From a virus, in IMG/VR virus record IMGVR_UViG_3300025941_000087, positions 1 through 25,982 of that record: a DNA stretch of 25,982 nt; one strand, given 5' to 3'. The notes below the pieces were generated by a model. That model searched no databases. It was not told the origin of the DNA and worked only from the letters and a program-made list of their open reading frames with translations. Both the position numbers and the translations under genes were made by a program. Positions 19,374 to 25,982 of this stretch are shown here, piece after piece. The stretch's first letter is position 1. Every line of letters begins with the position of its first letter.

Positions 19374-19852
19374 GCGCGGCGAACCCTGGCGGGCTGCATG
19401 AGTGGGACCAGGTGGCCTGCGCGTGGCTGCGGCAGCGCTGGGACGATGGGGCGGTCTGCAGCCTCATCGCGCGCGAGCTGGGCATCACCAAGAACGCCGT
19501 GGTGGGCAAGGTCCGCCGGCTCAGGCTGGCTCCGCGCGCCTCGCCGCTCCACGCCGCAGGCCAGCCGCGGCCTCCCGCGCGCCCCCGGCCGGTGAAGCCG
19601 CCGCGTCCACCGCGCCCGCCGAAGGCCGTGCAGGCGCCGCCGGAGCCTCGCCCTGTGCCTCCACCGCCGCCCCCGCCAGAGCCTGTGGCGCCGCGTGGCT
19701 GCCAGTATCCACGGGGGAACCGGCCGCACTGGGACTGGTGCGACGCGCCGGTGACCGGTCACGGGCCGTACTGCGCAGCTCATAGGGCTATCGCATATCT
19801 GCGGCCTGGCACCCGCGCCTGGATGCAGGAACGCGCGGAGGCTGCGGCGTGA
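19370..19852 (+). CDS. GcrA-family transcriptional regulator
   Basis: 160 residues from GTG 19370 (GTGA overlap). Residues about 12-55 (WDQVACAWLRQRWDDGAVCSLIARELGITKNAVVGKVRRLRL) match the GcrA helix-turn-helix, including the characteristic 'T+NAV.GK..RL' recognition helix. A very Pro-rich linker (about 66-108) leads to the GcrA-type C-terminal motif with C111, C124, C135 and H138 (CQYPRGNRPHWDWCDAPV, then GPYCAAH). In Caulobacter, GcrA binds RNA polymerase sigma70 and acts at promoters with methylated GANTC. A phage copy could redirect host cell-cycle genes or phage promoters. The methyltransferase genes next to it make a methylation link attractive but unproven. Confidence 0.85.
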   Translation: MSAANPGGLHEWDQVACAWLRQRWDDGAVCSLIARELGITKNAVVGKVRRLRLAPRASPLHAAGQPRPPARPRPVKPPRPPRPPKAVQAPPEPRPVPPPPPPPEPVAPRGCQYPRGNRPHWDWCDAPVTGHGPYCAAHRAIAYLRPGTRAWMQERAEAAA

Positions 19853-20865
19853 GGGTCCTCGATCTTTTTTCCGGTATCGGGAGCTTCAGCCTCGGCCTCG
19901 AGCGGGCCGGGTTCCGCACCTGCGCGTTTGTCGAGATCGATCCCTACTGCCGGCGGGTGCTGGCGAAGCACTGGCCGGAGGTGCCGCAGTACCATGACGT
20001 TCGAGAACTCACAGCAGATCGACTACACGGCGATGGGATTTTCCCAGATGTCATATGCGGCGGATTCCCTTGCACCGATATCAGCGTTGCCGGAAAGGGC
20101 GCAGGCATCACTGGACCACAGTCCGGGCTGTGGTCCGAGTTCGCCAGGCTCATTGGCGAGCTACGACCCCGCTACGTCATCGTGGAGAACGTCGCAGCTC
20201 TCCTTGTTCGGGGGATTGACCGAGTTCTCGGAGACCTGGCCTCGCTCGGGTACGATGCGGAGTGGGAGATTATATCCGCAGCATCCATGGGCGCCCCGCA
20301 CCGCCGGGAGCGCGTCTGGATTGTGGCCTACCCCGAGGGCCGGCGAGACGAGCGACCAGGCGAGCAGGCCGGGGCATTCGTTCAGTCTGTCGGCAGCTAT
20401 GCGCCAGGGGTGGGAGCCGCCGATGTTCCCGACTCCGGTGGCGAAGGACGATGGGAAGTCGTTCGCGGGCAGTTCGTGGAAGGGCCAGCACAGGGGCGCC
20501 ACGCTCACCACGTCAGTGCTTGCCGCTCAGATGTGGCCGACGCCGCAGGCGCACGACGCGGCGCCGGGGAATGCGAGCCGAGTGGGGCGCTACGGAACGG
20601 AGCACGGGGGGCGCAACCTGAACGACTGGGTGGCGCTGTGGCCGACGCCGACGATCAGCGGCAACCACAACCGCAAGGGCGCATCGGCGACATCGGGCGA
20701 TGGGCTGGCGACGGCGGCTGGTGGCGCGTTGAACCCGACGTGGGTCGAGTGGCTCATGGGGTTGCCTCTCGGGTGGACCGACTTAGGGCGCTAGGCAACA
20801 GCCTCGTGCCGCAGATTCCCGAAATGCTCGGGCGCGCGATCCTGGCGCGGCGGGCTGCGGCATGA
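19849..20865 (+). CDS. C5-cytosine DNA methyltransferase
   Basis: 338 residues from GTG 19849 (GTGA overlap). Motif I is at 5-21 (DLFSGIGSFSLGLERAG). The catalytic motif IV has Cys75 in CGGFPCTDIS. Motif VI is VENV (112-115), motif VIII is HRRERVWIVAYP (151-162), and the C-terminal motifs include RALGNSLVPQ (about 313-322). These give a standard 5mC enzyme using S-adenosylmethionine. The target-recognition region (about 165-300) is unusually Gly/Ala/Arg/Asp-rich. Codon use there is poor in this frame, because a second conserved reading frame occupies the same DNA (19994-20794). No cognate C-cutting nuclease is certain. It probably protects phage DNA from host restriction; specificity cannot be read. 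Confidence 0.88.
   Translation: MRVLDLFSGIGSFSLGLERAGFRTCAFVEIDPYCRRVLAKHWPEVPQYHDVRELTADRLHGDGIFPDVICGGFPCTDISVAGKGAGITGPQSGLWSEFARLIGELRPRYVIVENVAALLVRGIDRVLGDLASLGYDAEWEIISAASMGAPHRRERVWIVAYPEGRRDERPGEQAGAFVQSVGSYAPGVGAADVPDSGGEGRWEVVRGQFVEGPAQGRHAHHVSACRSDVADAAGARRGAGECEPSGALRNGARGAQPERLGGAVADADDQRQPQPQGRIGDIGRWAGDGGWWRVEPDVGRVAHGVASRVDRLRALGNSLVPQIPEMLGRAILARRAAA
19994..20794 (+). CDS. Overlapping-frame conserved phage protein (WPTP / NPTWVEWLMG type)
   Basis: Within the methyltransferase gene, the +1 frame is open from at least 19928 to the TAG at 20792-20794. From ATG 19994 it encodes 266 residues, but no clear ribosome-binding site marks the start. The product carries motifs of a recognisable phage protein type: DPATSSWRTSQLSLF, ETWPRSGTM, four W/F-P-T-P motifs (GLWPTPRA, MFPTPVAKDD, MWPTPQAHDA, LWPTPTISGN) and LNPTWVEWLMGLPLGWTDL. 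SSWRTSQ is encoded by the same bases as VIVENVA of the methyltransferase, and NPTWVEWLMG overlaps EPDVGRVAHG. In the 3' half, GC at third codon positions is higher in this frame than in the methyltransferase frame, by eye. How and whether it is translated is unknown. Confidence 0.6.
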   Translation: MTFENSQQIDYTAMGFSQMSYAADSLAPISALPERAQASLDHSPGCGPSSPGSLASYDPATSSWRTSQLSLFGGLTEFSETWPRSGTMRSGRLYPQHPWAPRTAGSASGLWPTPRAGETSDQASRPGHSFSLSAAMRQGWEPPMFPTPVAKDDGKSFAGSSWKGQHRGATLTTSVLAAQMWPTPQAHDAAPGNASRVGRYGTEHGGRNLNDWVALWPTPTISGNHNRKGASATSGDGLATAAGGALNPTWVEWLMGLPLGWTDLGR

Positions 20866-21116
20866 GCGTGCTGGAGCGCCGCTACATGCACTGCGCCACC
20901 CTGGCATGGCGCGTCTATGGCGGGGCCGGTTGGACCGCACGCATGGCGTCTGAGTGCCACGCACTCGGCATGCCGTGGGTGGACGGGTGGCTGGCGCGTG
21001 CGGTCCCGGTGCCGGACGCGATCCTGGCAGCGCTGATGCTGAGGCTGCGCGACATGGCGGCTGGGCGCGACTACAGCCAGCACAACGGCCCGCGCTCGCA
21101 TCTGGTGGCGGCATGA
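20862..21116 (+). CDS. Small conserved-type phage protein (84 aa)
   Basis: ATG 20862 overlaps the methyltransferase stop (ATGA). The sequence is helical with aromatic residues (RYMHCATLAWRVYGGAGWTARM, then ALMLRLRDMAAGRDYSQHNG) and has no membrane segment or known catalytic motif. It lies between the cytosine methyltransferase and the VRR-NUC nuclease in the coupled operon. Function unknown. Confidence 0.6.
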   Translation: MSVLERRYMHCATLAWRVYGGAGWTARMASECHALGMPWVDGWLARAVPVPDAILAALMLRLRDMAAGRDYSQHNGPRSHLVAA

Positions 21117-21544
21117 GTTACCGCCTCACTTCGCCGGTCGTGCCGGAGGATGAGTTGCACGCATCGGTCGCGTCGCTGCTACGCAAGCTGCTGCTGCCGC
21201 CGGCGAGATGGACGACGTTTCCGGCTGGCAGCGTGCCGCTCCCGCCGCAGTATGCCGCCAAGCTGGCGCGGCTCGGATTACAGCGCGGCTGGCCGGATAT
21301 CCTGGTGCTGCATGACGCGCGTATCTACGGCATAGAGCTGAAGCGGCGAGGTGGCGGGCTGAGCAAGACGCGCACCGTGCTGACGCGCAGTGGCGCGCAG
21401 AGGGTGCTGGAGGGCCAGGCCGATGTGTTCCCTGCGCTGGAGCGAGCCGGCATGCGGATCGCTGTGTGCCGTTCGGTCGATGACGTGGTGGATGCGCTCG
21501 TTGAATGGCGGCTGCCGATGATACCGGTGCGGGTGGCGGCATGA
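21113..21544 (+). CDS. VRR-NUC domain nuclease (143 aa)
   Basis: ATG 21113 overlaps the previous stop (ATGA); the longer upstream frame is filler. Residues about 12-130 match VRR-NUC: E14 in the first helix, GWPDILVL (D62), YGIELKR (E75, K77), and a closing helix after QADVFPALERAGMRIAVCRS. This is the PD-(D/E)xK fold in its stand-alone form, common in phages and proposed to cut branched or replication DNA; the eukaryotic relative is FAN1. The pattern D-x12-ExK is intact. It may act in replication or recombination, or as a nuclease tied to the modification enzymes. Confidence 0.82.
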   Translation: MSYRLTSPVVPEDELHASVASLLRKLLLPPARWTTFPAGSVPLPPQYAAKLARLGLQRGWPDILVLHDARIYGIELKRRGGGLSKTRTVLTRSGAQRVLEGQADVFPALERAGMRIAVCRSVDDVVDALVEWRLPMIPVRVAA

Positions 21545-22476
21545 GCGAGCTAGAGCCGCTCTCGGTACCACGCGGTCCGATTACCACGCTGGCGGATGCG
21601 GGGCAGGCACTGAAGGTGATTGCTGTCGCTGAGGCTGCGGAGACGCTGTGGGCACGCGCCAAGGACTCGAAAAAGATGTTCGAGGCGGTGGTGGCGAAGC
21701 TTACCAACCAGGCCGCTTATGCCGTCTGGCGGCAGAATGAGATCGTGCCATCGCAGATCACGGGCGGGCCTGGGCGCGGAAAACGGTTCGTAGAACAACG
21801 ATCCGTTTTACCGGCTGGAGATCCTGGAAAGGACGTTGTTGCCCGCTGGCGCCAGCGGCTGTGCAAGCGGATCAGTGCCAACGCCTGGTGTATGGACCAG
21901 GGGAAGTTTGATGCGGCGTTTGAGGACGCTTTCAGACGTTGTGTCCGCATCTGCGAGCAGGAGAATCTCGGCACCATCCGGGGCACTGAGGGCACTGGCG
22001 AGTTCGAGCGCTACACACCGAGCTTCTACATCGAGAAGGCGCGTGAGGTGCTCGGCGCCATCGACCTCGACCCGGCAAGCAGCGAATACGCGCAGCAGAC
22101 GGTGCGTGCGGGGAATTATTTTACAGTAGCGGACGATGGCCTGTCGCGTGAGTGGTTTGGCCGCGTATGGCTCAATCCGCCGTATCATCGCGAGCTGGCG
22201 CCGCTCTTCATCGACAAGCTGATCGAGGAGCGGATCAACAGACATGTCAGCGCGGCCGTCGTGCTGACCAACAACTCGACCGATACCGTGTGGTTTGAAA
22301 AGGCCGTGCGGTATTGCTCGGCCATCTGCTTCACCAGAGGGCGCATCCGTTTCGAGGTGCCAAACGCCGAGCCGGTGCTGCCGACGCAGGGCCAGGCGTT
22401 TTTATATTTCGGTAATGACCGGACGATTTTTACTGACGTATTTGATGCGGTCGGCTTCTGCGTGGAGCCGCTTTGA
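21541..22476 (+). CDS. Phage N6-adenine DNA methyltransferase (Dam type)
   Basis: 311 residues from ATG 21541 (ATGA overlap). The N-terminal 130 residues are helical (ALKVIAVAEAAETLWARAKDS) and may bind DNA. The C-terminal part matches phage adenine methyltransferases: FYIEKAREVLGAIDLDPASS (SAM region), then RVWLNPPYHRELAPLFIDKLIEE with the catalytic NPPY at residues 212-215, AVVLTNNSTDTVWF and RIRFEVPN. The product is N6-methyladenine in a short recognition site that cannot be read from the protein. It is coupled to the VRR-NUC gene before and the nuclease-like gene after. Confidence 0.85.
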   Translation: MSELEPLSVPRGPITTLADAGQALKVIAVAEAAETLWARAKDSKKMFEAVVAKLTNQAAYAVWRQNEIVPSQITGGPGRGKRFVEQRSVLPAGDPGKDVVARWRQRLCKRISANAWCMDQGKFDAAFEDAFRRCVRICEQENLGTIRGTEGTGEFERYTPSFYIEKAREVLGAIDLDPASSEYAQQTVRAGNYFTVADDGLSREWFGRVWLNPPYHRELAPLFIDKLIEERINRHVSAAVVLTNNSTDTVWFEKAVRYCSAICFTRGRIRFEVPNAEPVLPTQGQAFLYFGNDRTIFTDVFDAVGFCVEPL

Positions 22477-23534: not shown

Positions 23535-23903
23535 ATGACACCTAATCCGTACGCCCTGGCGGTCGAACTGGCCAGGCCGGTCGTGCGCGGCTACATCTCC
23601 CGCACCGACGTGGACCTGACGCTGGCCCTGGAAACGCCCGACACCGGCGCCTTCCGCATCGCCCAGCATCTGCTCAACGAACGGCTCAGCCGCCTGGAGA
23701 CGCGCCGCGATATCACCCGGCTGCGCATCAGGCGCCGGCTCAAGCCACTGATCGCCATGCGCAAGCCGCCCAACGTACTGCTCGCAGAGGCCCACGACGT
23801 GAACGGCGGTGAAGGGTTCCCGTTTGCCGAGCCGGAGGTGGGCGACATCGTTGCGACCGAAGTCTACTGGGCACTGCCGCAGGGAGGCCGGCGATATGGC
23901 TGA
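23535..23903 (+). CDS. Small basic phage protein (122 aa)
   Basis: The start is ATG 23535 with AGAGGC upstream; a longer upstream frame has no support. The protein is helical and Arg-rich (ISRTDVDLTLALETPDTGAFRIAQHLLNERLSRLETRRDITRLRIRRRLKPLIAMR), then a short acidic end. The N-terminal part (YALAVELARPVVRGYI) may be a helical bundle, and the basic centre could bind nucleic acid. It overlaps the ATPase gene by 8 nt. Function unknown; its place before a RepA-like gene suggests a replication accessory. Confidence 0.55.
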   Translation: MTPNPYALAVELARPVVRGYISRTDVDLTLALETPDTGAFRIAQHLLNERLSRLETRRDITRLRIRRRLKPLIAMRKPPNVLLAEAHDVNGGEGFPFAEPEVGDIVATEVYWALPQGGRRYG

Positions 23904-25197
23904 TACCCTCGACGAGATCCTCGCCGAAGCCGCCCAAAACAAAGAAGAGCAGGACCGGATCTTCAGCGCCTACGAAGCAGGCGAACCCAGACCTCGCCTC
24001 AAGTCCATCCCAGGCGGCAAGGCCGAGAGCGAGGACAGGGCCGAGGCGCCCCCATTCGGACTGCGGCCCGTCCGCATCCTCGACCAAAAGCTAATCCCCC
24101 ATCGGCAGTGGATCTACGGTACCCAGCTCATCCGCGGTTTCGTCACACTGCTGATCGCGCCAGGCGGCACCGGTAAAAGCACGCTCCTGCTGGCAACGTG
24201 CCTGTCCGTCGCCACCGGACGCTCGCTGCTCGGACCTCGCATCTACCAGCAGTGCAACACCGCCCTGCTCAATCTCGAAGACCCTCAGGACGAAATAGAC
24301 CGGCGACTCACCGCCCTCGCCATGCGCTACAATATCGGCGACGCCGACATCGGCGGACGGTTCTACGCATCCCCGCCAGAACGAGGTATCAAGATCGCCG
24401 CCAACGGCGCCGATGGATTCTCCGTCGTCCATCCCGATGAGAAACAAATCATCGAGCGCGTCCGTGACGAGCGCATCGGCCTCCTGGCCGTCGATCCATT
24501 CGCCGAAAGCCACACTCTCGAAGAAAACTCCAACCCCGCCATGATCCAGGCCGCCGCCGCCTGGCGGCGTGTCGCACGCCTGGGAGACTGCGCCGTCATC
24601 CTCTCCCATCACGTCCGCAAAGGCCCCGTGGACAACATCGAGAGCGCCCGTGGCGCCAAGGCACTCACCGACAGCGCCCGCATCGGCCTGCTGCTCAGCA
24701 CCATGACAGCCGAAGACGCCGAAAGCCTCGGTATCGCCGAGGATGAGCGCCTGCAATACGTCCGGCTGGATGACGCCAAAGCCAATATGGCACCCCGCGC
24801 CCCTAAGGCCGCGTGGTTCCACCTCTCCAGCATCACCCTCGATAACGCCGACGCTACCTACACCCACGGCGATCAGGTCGGTGTCATCGAAGCATGGGAG
24901 CCAGAAAATGTCTGGGACACCATCTCAATCAAAGACGCCAACACCATCCTCGACCGCATCGCGGCCGGGAAAGACGGCGAGCCATACACCGATAGCCGAC
25001 GCCACCCAGCCACACGGTGGGCCGGTCACGTCGTCATCGCCGTCATCGACTGTCCGGCCGAACAAGCCGCCAGCATCATCGGCACATGGGTCAGAAACGG
25101 TGTCCTTATCAGGGATGGTTACAAAACCGACAACCGTAAGGCCAGAACCGCCCTCCGCGTCGATGACACCAAGCGCCCAGGCACCCGGTATGAGTGA
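23896..25197 (+). CDS. RepA-like AAA ATPase, putative replicative helicase
   Basis: 433 residues; AGGGAGG about 8 nt before ATG 23896. The N-terminal 60 residues are a charged tail. The RecA-fold core has Walker A APGGTGKST (88-96), a second strand TALLNLEDP with acidic residues (about 122-130), Walker B LLAVD (196-200), and SHHVRKG plus ARGAKALTDSARIG (about 237-265), the sensor region of the AAA_25/RepA group. These hexameric ATPases unwind DNA at plasmid and phage origins. The C-terminal 90 residues are an extra domain (IIGTWVRNGVLIRDGYKTDNRKART) resembling a winged helix. The iteron-rich palindrome 270 nt downstream fits an origin. Codon use is more C-ending here than in the block before. 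Confidence 0.82.
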   Translation: MADTLDEILAEAAQNKEEQDRIFSAYEAGEPRPRLKSIPGGKAESEDRAEAPPFGLRPVRILDQKLIPHRQWIYGTQLIRGFVTLLIAPGGTGKSTLLLATCLSVATGRSLLGPRIYQQCNTALLNLEDPQDEIDRRLTALAMRYNIGDADIGGRFYASPPERGIKIAANGADGFSVVHPDEKQIIERVRDERIGLLAVDPFAESHTLEENSNPAMIQAAAAWRRVARLGDCAVILSHHVRKGPVDNIESARGAKALTDSARIGLLLSTMTAEDAESLGIAEDERLQYVRLDDAKANMAPRAPKAAWFHLSSITLDNADATYTHGDQVGVIEAWEPENVWDTISIKDANTILDRIAAGKDGEPYTDSRRHPATRWAGHVVIAVIDCPAEQAASIIGTWVRNGVLIRDGYKTDNRKARTALRVDDTKRPGTRYE

Positions 25198-25459
25198 GTT
25201 TCCCGAAGGCTTCGCTCTGGAATGGGACGGCCAGGTCTACCGCCCCACGGGAACCCGTGAGCACATCCGCAAAGACAGCACCCTCACCAGGCTGGTGGAC
25301 TGGACCACCCAGTGCCCGTCATGCGGGAAAGAGTTCACCCTCAGCACCTCTCTGTTGTTTCACGCGCCCAGACGACGCTGCGATGCATGCAAGTCGCCCC
25401 GTCGCGTCAAGACCGACCGTAATCTCTTCATGAGCCAAATCCGAGGCGATGCAGCATGA
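25190..25459 (+). CDS. Small zinc-ribbon protein (89 aa)
   Basis: ATG 25190 overlaps the ATPase stop by 8 nt; the longer upstream frame is an overlapping shadow. The protein has a CPSCGKEF motif and a second CDACKS motif about 30 residues later, so a four-Cys zinc ribbon is likely. The C-terminus is basic (RRVKTDRNLF). The N-terminus (EGFALEWDGQVYRPTGTREHIRKD) is a short beta region. Placement after the helicase suggests a replication or DNA-binding accessory. The stop overlaps the next ATG (ATGA). Confidence 0.65.
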   Translation: MSEFPEGFALEWDGQVYRPTGTREHIRKDSTLTRLVDWTTQCPSCGKEFTLSTSLLFHAPRRRCDACKSPRRVKTDRNLFMSQIRGDAA

Positions 25460-25695
25460 CCCAATACCTGTGTTTGTGGCGCGCTTTGTGGCGCGGTGTG
25501 GCGCGCCGTTGGACGGTTGCGCCACAAATTGGCCCCCCATTAAGGGGGGGGCCAAAAAGTTTGTGGCGCGCCCCAACCGTCCTTAGGCGATTTGTAGCGC
25601 ACTTGTGGCGCACCGGCCCACAGCCCATCGGACCCATCGTCGAGCGCATCCTCGAACGCTGCCAAGCTACCAAGGACAACCCCCATGCCGCTTGA
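25456..25695 (+). CDS. Doubtful 79-residue ORF over the iteron/palindrome region
   Basis: The ATG at 25456 overlaps the previous stop, a coupling seen for most genes here. However, the predicted protein (LWRALWRGVARRW, repeated LWR/WRA units, RGGP) is largely dictated by the TTTGTGGCGCG repeats and the inverted repeat at 25511-25582. It has no recognised fold. It may be a real but unusual peptide, or simply an open frame across an origin. Confidence 0.3.
   Translation: MTQYLCLWRALWRGVARRWTVAPQIGPPLRGGPKSLWRAPTVLRRFVAHLWRTGPQPIGPIVERILERCQATKDNPHAA
25473..25612. repeat. Iteron-like repeats TTTGTGGCGCG
   Basis: Copies occur at 25473-25484, 25485-25496, about 25495-25506 (partial), 25519-25528 (inverted), 25560-25570, 25591-25600 (one change) and 25602-25612. 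Spacings of about 10-12 nt between the first three place them on the same face of the helix. The repeats end about 70 nt before the next gene. Confidence 0.65.
25511..25582. other. 72-nt nested inverted repeat, candidate replication origin
   Basis: Three nested stems: GGACGGTTG (25511-25519) with CAACCGTCC (25574-25582); CGCCACAAA (25520-25528) with TTTGTGGCG (25560-25568); TTGGCCCCCC (25529-25538) with GGGGGGCCAA (25546-25555). Together they give 28 paired positions, interrupted by two bulges on the 3' side (25556-25559 and 25569-25573). The loop is ATTAAGG. It sits inside the iteron cluster, 314 nt after the ATPase stop. A cruciform or primer-hairpin origin is the main reading; a strong attenuator before the NusG-like gene is the alternative. 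Confidence 0.6.
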
Positions 25696-25982
25696 CGCAC
25701 TACCAGCTACCCGGTTAGATGCGGCCAACAGGATGTGGGGCCAGCCTCTCGCGGACCCTATGCCTAGCGGATGCCGTCCAGCCTGGTTCGTTGCTGTCAT
25801 CACCTCAGGCCAGATGGCACTCGCCGAAGCCGCACTCCGCGCCGATCACTGGCCATGCCTCTTCCCGCTTCATATCGAACGACACGGCAGCAAGCGCGGC
25901 ACCATCGTGCCTCTCTTCCCTGGCTACGCCTTCGTCCAGTTCAGCCTCGCCAATGACCACTGGCCGGAAATCTACCGCACCA
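25685..25982 (+). CDS. NusG-like transcription antitermination protein, 5' part (cut by window end)
   Basis: The frame opens at ATG 25685, overlapping the doubtful ORF by 11 nt, and runs open to the window edge (99 residues). Residues about 33-95 match the NGN (NusG N-terminal) domain: AWFVAVITSGQMALAEAALRADHWPCLFP, then IVPLFPGYAFVQFSLANDHWPEIY. The PLFPGYAFVQ strand is characteristic. NusG-family proteins bind RNA polymerase and change pausing and termination; phage and RfaH-type copies switch on distant operons. Its place after the early and replication genes suits a late-gene antiterminator. The KOW domain cannot be checked because the gene is truncated here. Confidence 0.78.
   Translation, partial: MPLDALPATRLDAANRMWGQPLADPMPSGCRPAWFVAVITSGQMALAEAALRADHWPCLFPLHIERHGSKRGTIVPLFPGYAFVQFSLANDHWPEIYRT

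Follow-up and report, generated by a model that had tools for sequence, protein, structure and literature searches.

The initiator helicases SaPI Rep and SCCmec Cch2, members of a D5-related family, have origin iterons situated immediately 3' of their own genes (PMC7581432). According to this source, the iterons of SaPI Rep are recognized by its C-terminal domain, and in SCCmec the repeats, some direct and some inverted, have the potential to form hairpins (PMC7581432). RSF1010 oriV, as covered in a second source, brings together the RepA helicase, the iteron binder RepC, the primase RepB' and ssi hairpins (PMC4234260). The same source places the large stem-loop origins of pRN1 and the Bordetella phage BIP-1 just 3' of a replication protein ending in a winged helix; these proteins comprise an archaeo-eukaryotic primase and an SF3 helicase, and their origins keep the fold while the loop sequence varies, with no iterons described (PMC4234260). 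PrimQH primase-helicases combine a RepA-type helicase with a C-terminal winged helix, which the authors of that work suggest may recognize the origin (PMC5862659). In the Vibrio phage satellite systems PLE RepA and Odn, the initiator and its iterons vary as matched modules (PMC8263062).

The locus analysed here belongs to one IMG/VR virus record (IMGVR_UViG_3300025941_000087), of which the whole stretch of 25,982 nucleotides is hereafter termed the window. As with SaPI Rep and Cch2, a phage helicase gene has iterons directly downstream (70/92 and 66/84 loci, against 4/252 controls). Unlike those enzymes, the phage helicase is not D5-related but a RecA-fold relative of RSF1010 RepA, and its site is further distinguished by a strong nested hairpin and a map of residue-base covariation. 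The best reading is that the phage origin works like those of SaPI Rep and SCCmec Cch2, but with a RecA-type helicase; both origin activity and binding are inferred. Likeness to RSF1010 oriV, with its hexameric RepA, lies in the RepA-family helicase, by homology only, and in iterons accompanied by a nearby hairpin; the ssi hairpins of RSF1010 are recognized by a primase. RSF1010 RepC binds iterons of about 20 bp. Unlike these, the phage unit spans about 10 bp and the covariation falls on the helicase, whose own winged helix appears to be the reader in place of a separate RepC; a PHROGs scan of 20 window proteins, extended to Pfam for 10 of these, detected no RepC. With pRN1 and BIP-1 the phage locus shares a stem-loop 3' of a winged-helix protein and a loop that varies while the fold is kept, whereas its helicase is RecA-type, with no primase domain detected, in contrast to their AEP-SF3-WH proteins, and its array has iterons. 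The domain order, a RepA-type helicase and then a C-terminal winged helix, matches that of part of the PrimQH family; unlike PrimQH, for which no target DNA is identified in the sections considered, the phage protein has a proposed target in the array and its matching residues. Helicase and iterons vary as matched modules, as in PLE RepA and Odn, whose initiator differs in being of RepA_N type rather than a helicase and whose iterons are longer and semi-palindromic. No publication describing the array or the residue code was found in open-licence literature. As far as these searches show, three things are new: the RecA-type helicase in this role, the combination of iterons and hairpin in one array found in many phages, and the pattern linking residues to bases.

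Iteron array and nested hairpin

The proposed helicase-bound origin core, delimited by a repeat search and by comparison with relatives, is an iteron array at positions 25473–25611 (no strand assigned). A sequence-only reading of the window had described seven copies of a repeat here, six direct and one inverted, and the search located this same set of non-overlapping TTTGTGGCGC-type units. Iterons 1 and 2 (25473–25482 and 25485–25494, + strand) both read TTTGTGGCGC and are followed on the same strand by iteron 3 (GTGTGGCGC; 25496–25504). The middle stem of a hairpin is formed on its left by iteron 4 (25519–25528, - strand), which is inverted, and on its right by the next direct copy, iteron 5 (25560–25569, + strand); iterons 6 (TTTGTAGCGC; 25591–25600) and 7 (CTTGTGGCGC; 25602–25611) complete the array on the + strand. 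An extra inverted match with one mismatch (25568–25576) overlaps a direct copy. Allowing up to one mismatch, the 9-mer TTGTGGCGC occurs 30 times in the window against 13.45 expected, and none of 100 shuffles reached 30 or more; eight of the 30 matches fall in the array, which is the window's only cluster of at least three unit copies. The array region had no DNA similarity match among named phages and no match in Rfam.

The nested stem-loop (25504–25589, no strand assigned) is supported by its folding energy and by pairing in relatives. Stem 1 pairs 25511–25519 with 25574–25582 (9 bp), stem 2 pairs 25520–25528 with 25560–25568 (9 bp) and stem 3 pairs 25529–25538 with 25546–25555 (10 bp). These three make up the 72-nt nested palindrome claimed earlier, with its C6 run at 25533–25538 and G8 run at 25544–25551, and agree with that description; a fourth, outer stem joins 25504–25507 to 25586–25589 (4 bp). 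When the region was folded as single-stranded DNA, the check proposed for that claim, it reached -52.3 kcal/mol compared with -40.5 ± 3.6 for shuffled sequences (z = -3.28), none of the 200 shuffles being as stable. Among six close relatives, 98.5% of cells across 22 pairs were paired, a level attained by 2 of 500 shuffles (six rows only), and three of the 22 pairs had changed on both sides. Between the inverted iterons, the inner hairpin with the G/C runs (25529–25555, no strand assigned) changes fast in sequence while its pairing is kept in many relatives. With the inner part shuffled and the iteron arms held fixed, the real sequence scored a z below -1.5 in 34 of 57 wider loci, and the hairpin is therefore regarded as common but not universal.

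A 79-codon ORF (25456–25695) spans the array and reads LWRALWRG at the repeats, in keeping with the earlier remark that they force a strange WRALWRG-like peptide. The repeats could be a by-product of this ORF or of low-complexity GC-rich sequence, that is, ordinary coding DNA, given that 45 of 61 arrays are spanned by an open forward frame and that the ORF tail (GPQPIGPIV.RILERCQATKD) is common in frame to the window and its relatives L002 and L003. However, such a frame is missing from the other 16 of the 61, the repeats are translated in different frames in the window (LWR) and in L002 (LVA/FVA), and conservation of the unit and the hairpin is at the DNA level; ordinary coding DNA is almost certainly not the explanation. 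The outcome named beforehand as refuting an origin, a protein conserved where the repeats are not, failed to materialize, as the repeats persist while the frame over them changes.

The array in related phages and plasmids

Scans with the ATPase yielded 13 viral loci, later the best 80 of 439, as well as 12 loci from bacterial genomes (Rhodoblastus, Tardiphaga, Bradyrhizobium, Ensifer, Rhizobium, Mesorhizobium, Aminobacter and a Hyphomicrobiales bin). In addition, a search of viral contigs for two adjacent TTTGTGGCGC copies returned 28 stretches, of which only those carrying the helicase were used. A fixed caller placed an array after the helicase gene in 70 of the 92 first-set loci, of which the viral part comprised the best 80 of 439, compared with 4 of 252 control stretches taken from first-set loci; among 84 further loci, added later, 66 had an array, 17 had none and one was too short. 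About half of the 22 first-set loci below the array threshold lack a family-form array anywhere in the locus, and several hold weak arrays in the usual place; in L115, L122 and L125 a strong array is displaced 0.5–1 kb further downstream. The caller found no array in Rhizobium phage RHph_X2_26, which encodes a related helicase.

In the closest relatives, the TTTGTGGCGC-type unit, the order of the copies and the hairpin all occur within a few dozen bases downstream of the ATPase stop. Wider relatives conserve position and geometry while the unit diversifies: its loose form is nnnTGnnGCA, within a locus it changes together in all copies, and the layout remains much alike, (-)+++ - [hairpin] + ++. 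Of 227 spacings (none above 40 nt) between adjacent direct copies, 61 measure 11 nt and 35 measure 12 nt, and a further group falls around 29–33 nt; phased direct repeats adjoining an initiator gene, a classical feature of iteron plasmid origins, are present, here with a spacing of 11–12 nt. Six or more loci whose unit is clear (L012, L107, L112, L130, L131 and L133) have the entire array turned round with respect to the gene. Because of the 11–12 nt spacing, the inverted arrays and the differing or absent open frames, the array is taken to be a double-stranded DNA site. The genes neighbouring the array vary between records, and eight of nine long records contain no other cluster of its unit. 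The earlier identification of the repeats as iterons is strengthened by their conserved place, joint unit change, direct spacing of about one turn and covariation with the C-terminal domain of the helicase.

Several features of individual records were also observed. Between the helicase and the array, the window and L003 carry a 79-codon gene (25194–25433 in the window) with a CPSC...CDAC pattern that appears zinc-ribbon-like by eye, and this gene is absent from that place in other near relatives. The 40864-base record of L002, which also contains L043–L045, has a 123-base direct terminal repeat and may, given this repeat, be a complete genome. Three one-mismatch TAATGGCGC copies lie about 2.3 kb past the main array of L054 (7507–7638; G010 47507–47638).

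The window ends within a NusG-like gene (25685–25982), cut by the end of the record, and a sequence search of viral contigs with the cut-off 99-residue protein as query yielded no relatives. This gene lies directly downstream of the array in the window and near it in close relatives, and the strong hairpin could instead act as RNA, in a leader or antitermination element for the gene (25685 onward). Yet NusG occurs in only 9 of 36 array-bearing records and the orientation of the array is reversed in the six or more loci listed above, such that neither the downstream NusG nor the fixed hairpin orientation of a NusG-type antitermination leader is consistently found. Phasing of about 11 nt, covariation with the helicase and the absence of an Rfam match also speak against an RNA element, which is very improbable.

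Covariation between the helicase and its iterons

The gene upstream of the array (23809–25197, + strand) encodes a 462-residue protein matching AAA_25 (E = 4.1e-35), proposed to be the array-binding initiator. Its sole sequence match in the PDB is RSF1010 RepA (1g8y; E = 4.5e-17), and RepA is also the top fold match of its AF2 model (1nlf; E = 5e-15; pLDDT 85), which upholds the RepA-like identity first proposed for this ATPase. The sequence alignment to RepA ends at residue 337, and the AF2 model has an added helix-helix-helix-strand-strand domain at residues 374–452. Residues 362–462 (24892–25194, + strand) are proposed to form a winged-helix region that reads the iterons, on the basis of the element order in the AF2 model, weak fold matches and covariation; modelled alone, the C-terminal domain matches mostly winged helices, weakly (best E = 7e-3). 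By sequence and structural model, the ATPase is related to the RSF1010 RepA helicase and carries an additional, predicted winged helix. In L009 (4007–5281) the helicase match was reported to contain an in-frame TGA. Just upstream of the helicase gene, the window encodes a small basic protein (23535–23903) with a tblastn match in 13 of 91 other first-set loci; it is possibly a partner of the helicase.

An array threshold of 5.2 and the removal of near-duplicates gave 61 first-set loci. Eight of these were dropped before the column scan, namely L002 (a near-duplicate) and seven with non-fitting units (L128, L106, L101, L116, L110, L100 and L077), leaving 53; the first-set figures are exploratory, because loci were dropped by eye after the units had been seen. 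A held-out set was processed with the same caller, using cut-offs for unit fit (3.0) and identity (90%) fixed after the table of arrays had been seen, and 47 loci remained once eleven poor-fit and eight near-identical loci were excluded. The pair tests and the tables of unambiguous loci, of which the held-out set contains 36, exclude sixteen units whose orientation is unclear (core TGCCGCA/TGCGGCA and similar). The column scans replaced a motif-by-distance Mantel test because the latter was weak (the motif-to-C-terminus partial Mantel was a modest 0.157, p = 0.013).

In the first set, bases 6–7 of the unit are most strongly associated with residue 444, in the wing. Column 444 ranks top of 332 for these bases (z = 11.1, with a permutation maximum of 4.8), other columns reaching z values up to 6.4, as expected from shared ancestry, and GC at bases 6–7 occurs with K444 in 28 of 32 loci and with non-K in 0 of 21. 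The K444 rule was stated before the held-out loci were fetched. In these, GC occurs with K444 in 6 of 12 and with non-K in 1 of 35 (p = 5e-4), indicating that loci with GC nearly always have K444 but loci with K444 do not always have GC (34 of 42 overall; 6 of 11 among unambiguous held-out loci), and column 444 is top of 338 for base 6 and for base 7. In the code proposed here, K444 goes mostly with GC, R444 mostly with GA, H444 with A, C or T followed by C, and M444 mostly with TG or GG.

Further columns emerged from the held-out scan. Column 398 ranks top for bases 2 and 3 (z = 17.7 and 27.1), 405 for base 4, 446 for base 5 and 443 for base 9, all within the winged-helix region, while the top columns for bases 1 and 10 (356 and 265) lie outside it. 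In the window, R398 is encoded at 25000–25002, and the two wing residues, R443 with its link to base 9 and K444 with its link to bases 6–7, at 25135–25140, all on the + strand. Among unambiguous held-out loci, AC occurs with R398 in 11/11 and GG with Q398 in 24/25; when units of unclear orientation are kept, these become 14/15 and 24/32. C at base 9 occurs with R443 in 33/33 unambiguous held-out loci and another base with non-R443 in 3/3, and in the first set C9 occurs with R443 in 37/38 and with non-R443 in 0/10. The fits for 398 and 443 are descriptive rather than blind, because both rules were noticed in the held-out scan. The R/Q398 rule fails in the window's own long-loop clade, where R398 is found with TTG, TTA and AAT, and AC is found with Q398 in L062 and L064.

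Ancestry was controlled for with a tree of the helicase core only (residues 85–340, 100 rows, quick method). Independent pairs on this tree changed predominantly in the same direction for K444/GC (14 pairs, 10.8 the same way and 0.1 opposite; median p about 0.001), Q398/G3 (7 pairs, 6.0 the same and 0.4 opposite; median p = 0.03) and R443/C9 (6 pairs, 5.9 the same and 0 opposite; median p = 0.03), while six core control residues had no link to GC in the same pair test. In four plasmid records and the three displaced-array loci, the 398 pattern holds in 7/7 and the 444 residues belong to known classes, bases 6–7 being AC with H444 in a Rhodoplanes plasmid, TC with H444 in L122 and GC with K444 in L125. 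SaPI Rep/Cch2-type initiators have a C-terminal DNA-binding domain that recognizes the iterons; the predicted winged helix, which covaries with the unit bases, may be a counterpart here. This residue-base covariation with the helicase C-terminus, observed by computation, suggests that the helicase itself reads the repeats, a few amino acids matching particular bases, though no binding data accompany the sequence comparison. The earlier reading had named the adjacent ATPase or small proteins as candidate binders, and it is to the ATPase that the covariation points.

Origin activity and alternative roles of the site

The array is very probably the core of the phage replication origin, its iterons being read by the helicase that the phage itself encodes, although both its activity as an origin and its binding are inferred. 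Origin function is the likeliest use because of the homology of the helicase, the position of the array and the shared change of site and helicase. The origin proposed from the sequence alone is supported by the place of the array, its iteron-like behaviour and its covariation with the helicase, which do not demonstrate origin activity itself. The circular replicon pVL1_6 of Methylobacterium indicum and pR24_3 of Microvirga terrae each carry a toprim protein, the helicase and the array, with no other annotated replication gene (both gene tables being incomplete); the M. lotononidis record encodes repB/repC as well.

The covariation points only to the helicase reading the array, and the site may have another main role, as an operator, in copy control or handcuffing, or in restart or loading, with the true origin elsewhere. 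Consistent with this, the array lacks an AT-rich element: only 5 of 61 arrays, not including the window's, contain 30 consecutive nt that are at least 70% AT, and the AT-rich unwinding element of classical iteron plasmid origins is accordingly absent as a rule from within the arrays (their interior only was considered). Nor does GC skew make a clear turn. The skew check proposed earlier did not single out the array in seven phage records and three circular plasmids; 5/7 phage records (by eye) and 0/3 plasmids have a skew extreme no more than 2.5 kb from the array, and the strong C-richness of the helicase gene itself limits what the skew can show. However, the array follows rather than precedes the helicase gene, the genes adjoining it differ between records, it is the sole unit cluster in all but one of the long records, and pVL1_6 has no other annotated replication gene. 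A different main role is unlikely on this evidence, but retains some weight. Separately, the circular, phage-like Rhodoplanes serenus plasmid record (L146) has a distinctly AT-rich stretch inside its array, unlike most.

That same Rhodoplanes serenus record also encodes a terminase, a few genes downstream from the helicase, as might be the case were the array a packaging (cos/pac) site. Packaging or partition remains highly improbable, since the site adjoins and covaries with a replication helicase amid varied neighbours and, for partition, ParA is encoded elsewhere on pVL1_6.

If the array is the origin core, the C-terminal winged helix of the RepA-type helicase would be what contacts the 10-bp iterons, in double-stranded form, with residue 398 setting the preference for bases 2–3 and wing residues 443 and 444 those for bases 9 and 6–7. 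Iterons that flank the hairpin at intervals of about 11 bp would allow helicase rings to assemble there, and the hairpin, with its middle stem formed by an inverted iteron pair, may be extruded or exposed as a site of opening, loading or priming. The physical contact between helicase and site, the assembly of rings, the firing of the origin and the part played by the hairpin are all inferred. With less assurance than for the site itself, the loci probably represent a large family of phage and phage-plasmid replicons in which RecA-type helicases double as origin readers, with a modular winged-helix code and codivergence of helicase and origin.

For most uncultured phages the site where replication starts is unknown, and a hidden class of origin could be located by sequence beside a common, poorly annotated helicase. 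If the code is true, origins and their specificity groups would be predictable from sequence alone. Natural data that show an initiator changing together with its DNA sites are rare, and the matched variation provides such a set, with concrete residues named. It may also explain compatibility among phages, satellites and plasmids, as well as how a RepA/DnaB-fold helicase reaches a double-stranded origin without a separate initiator protein.

The replication region of the window additionally encodes C5-type and Dam-type DNA methyltransferases (19849–22476).
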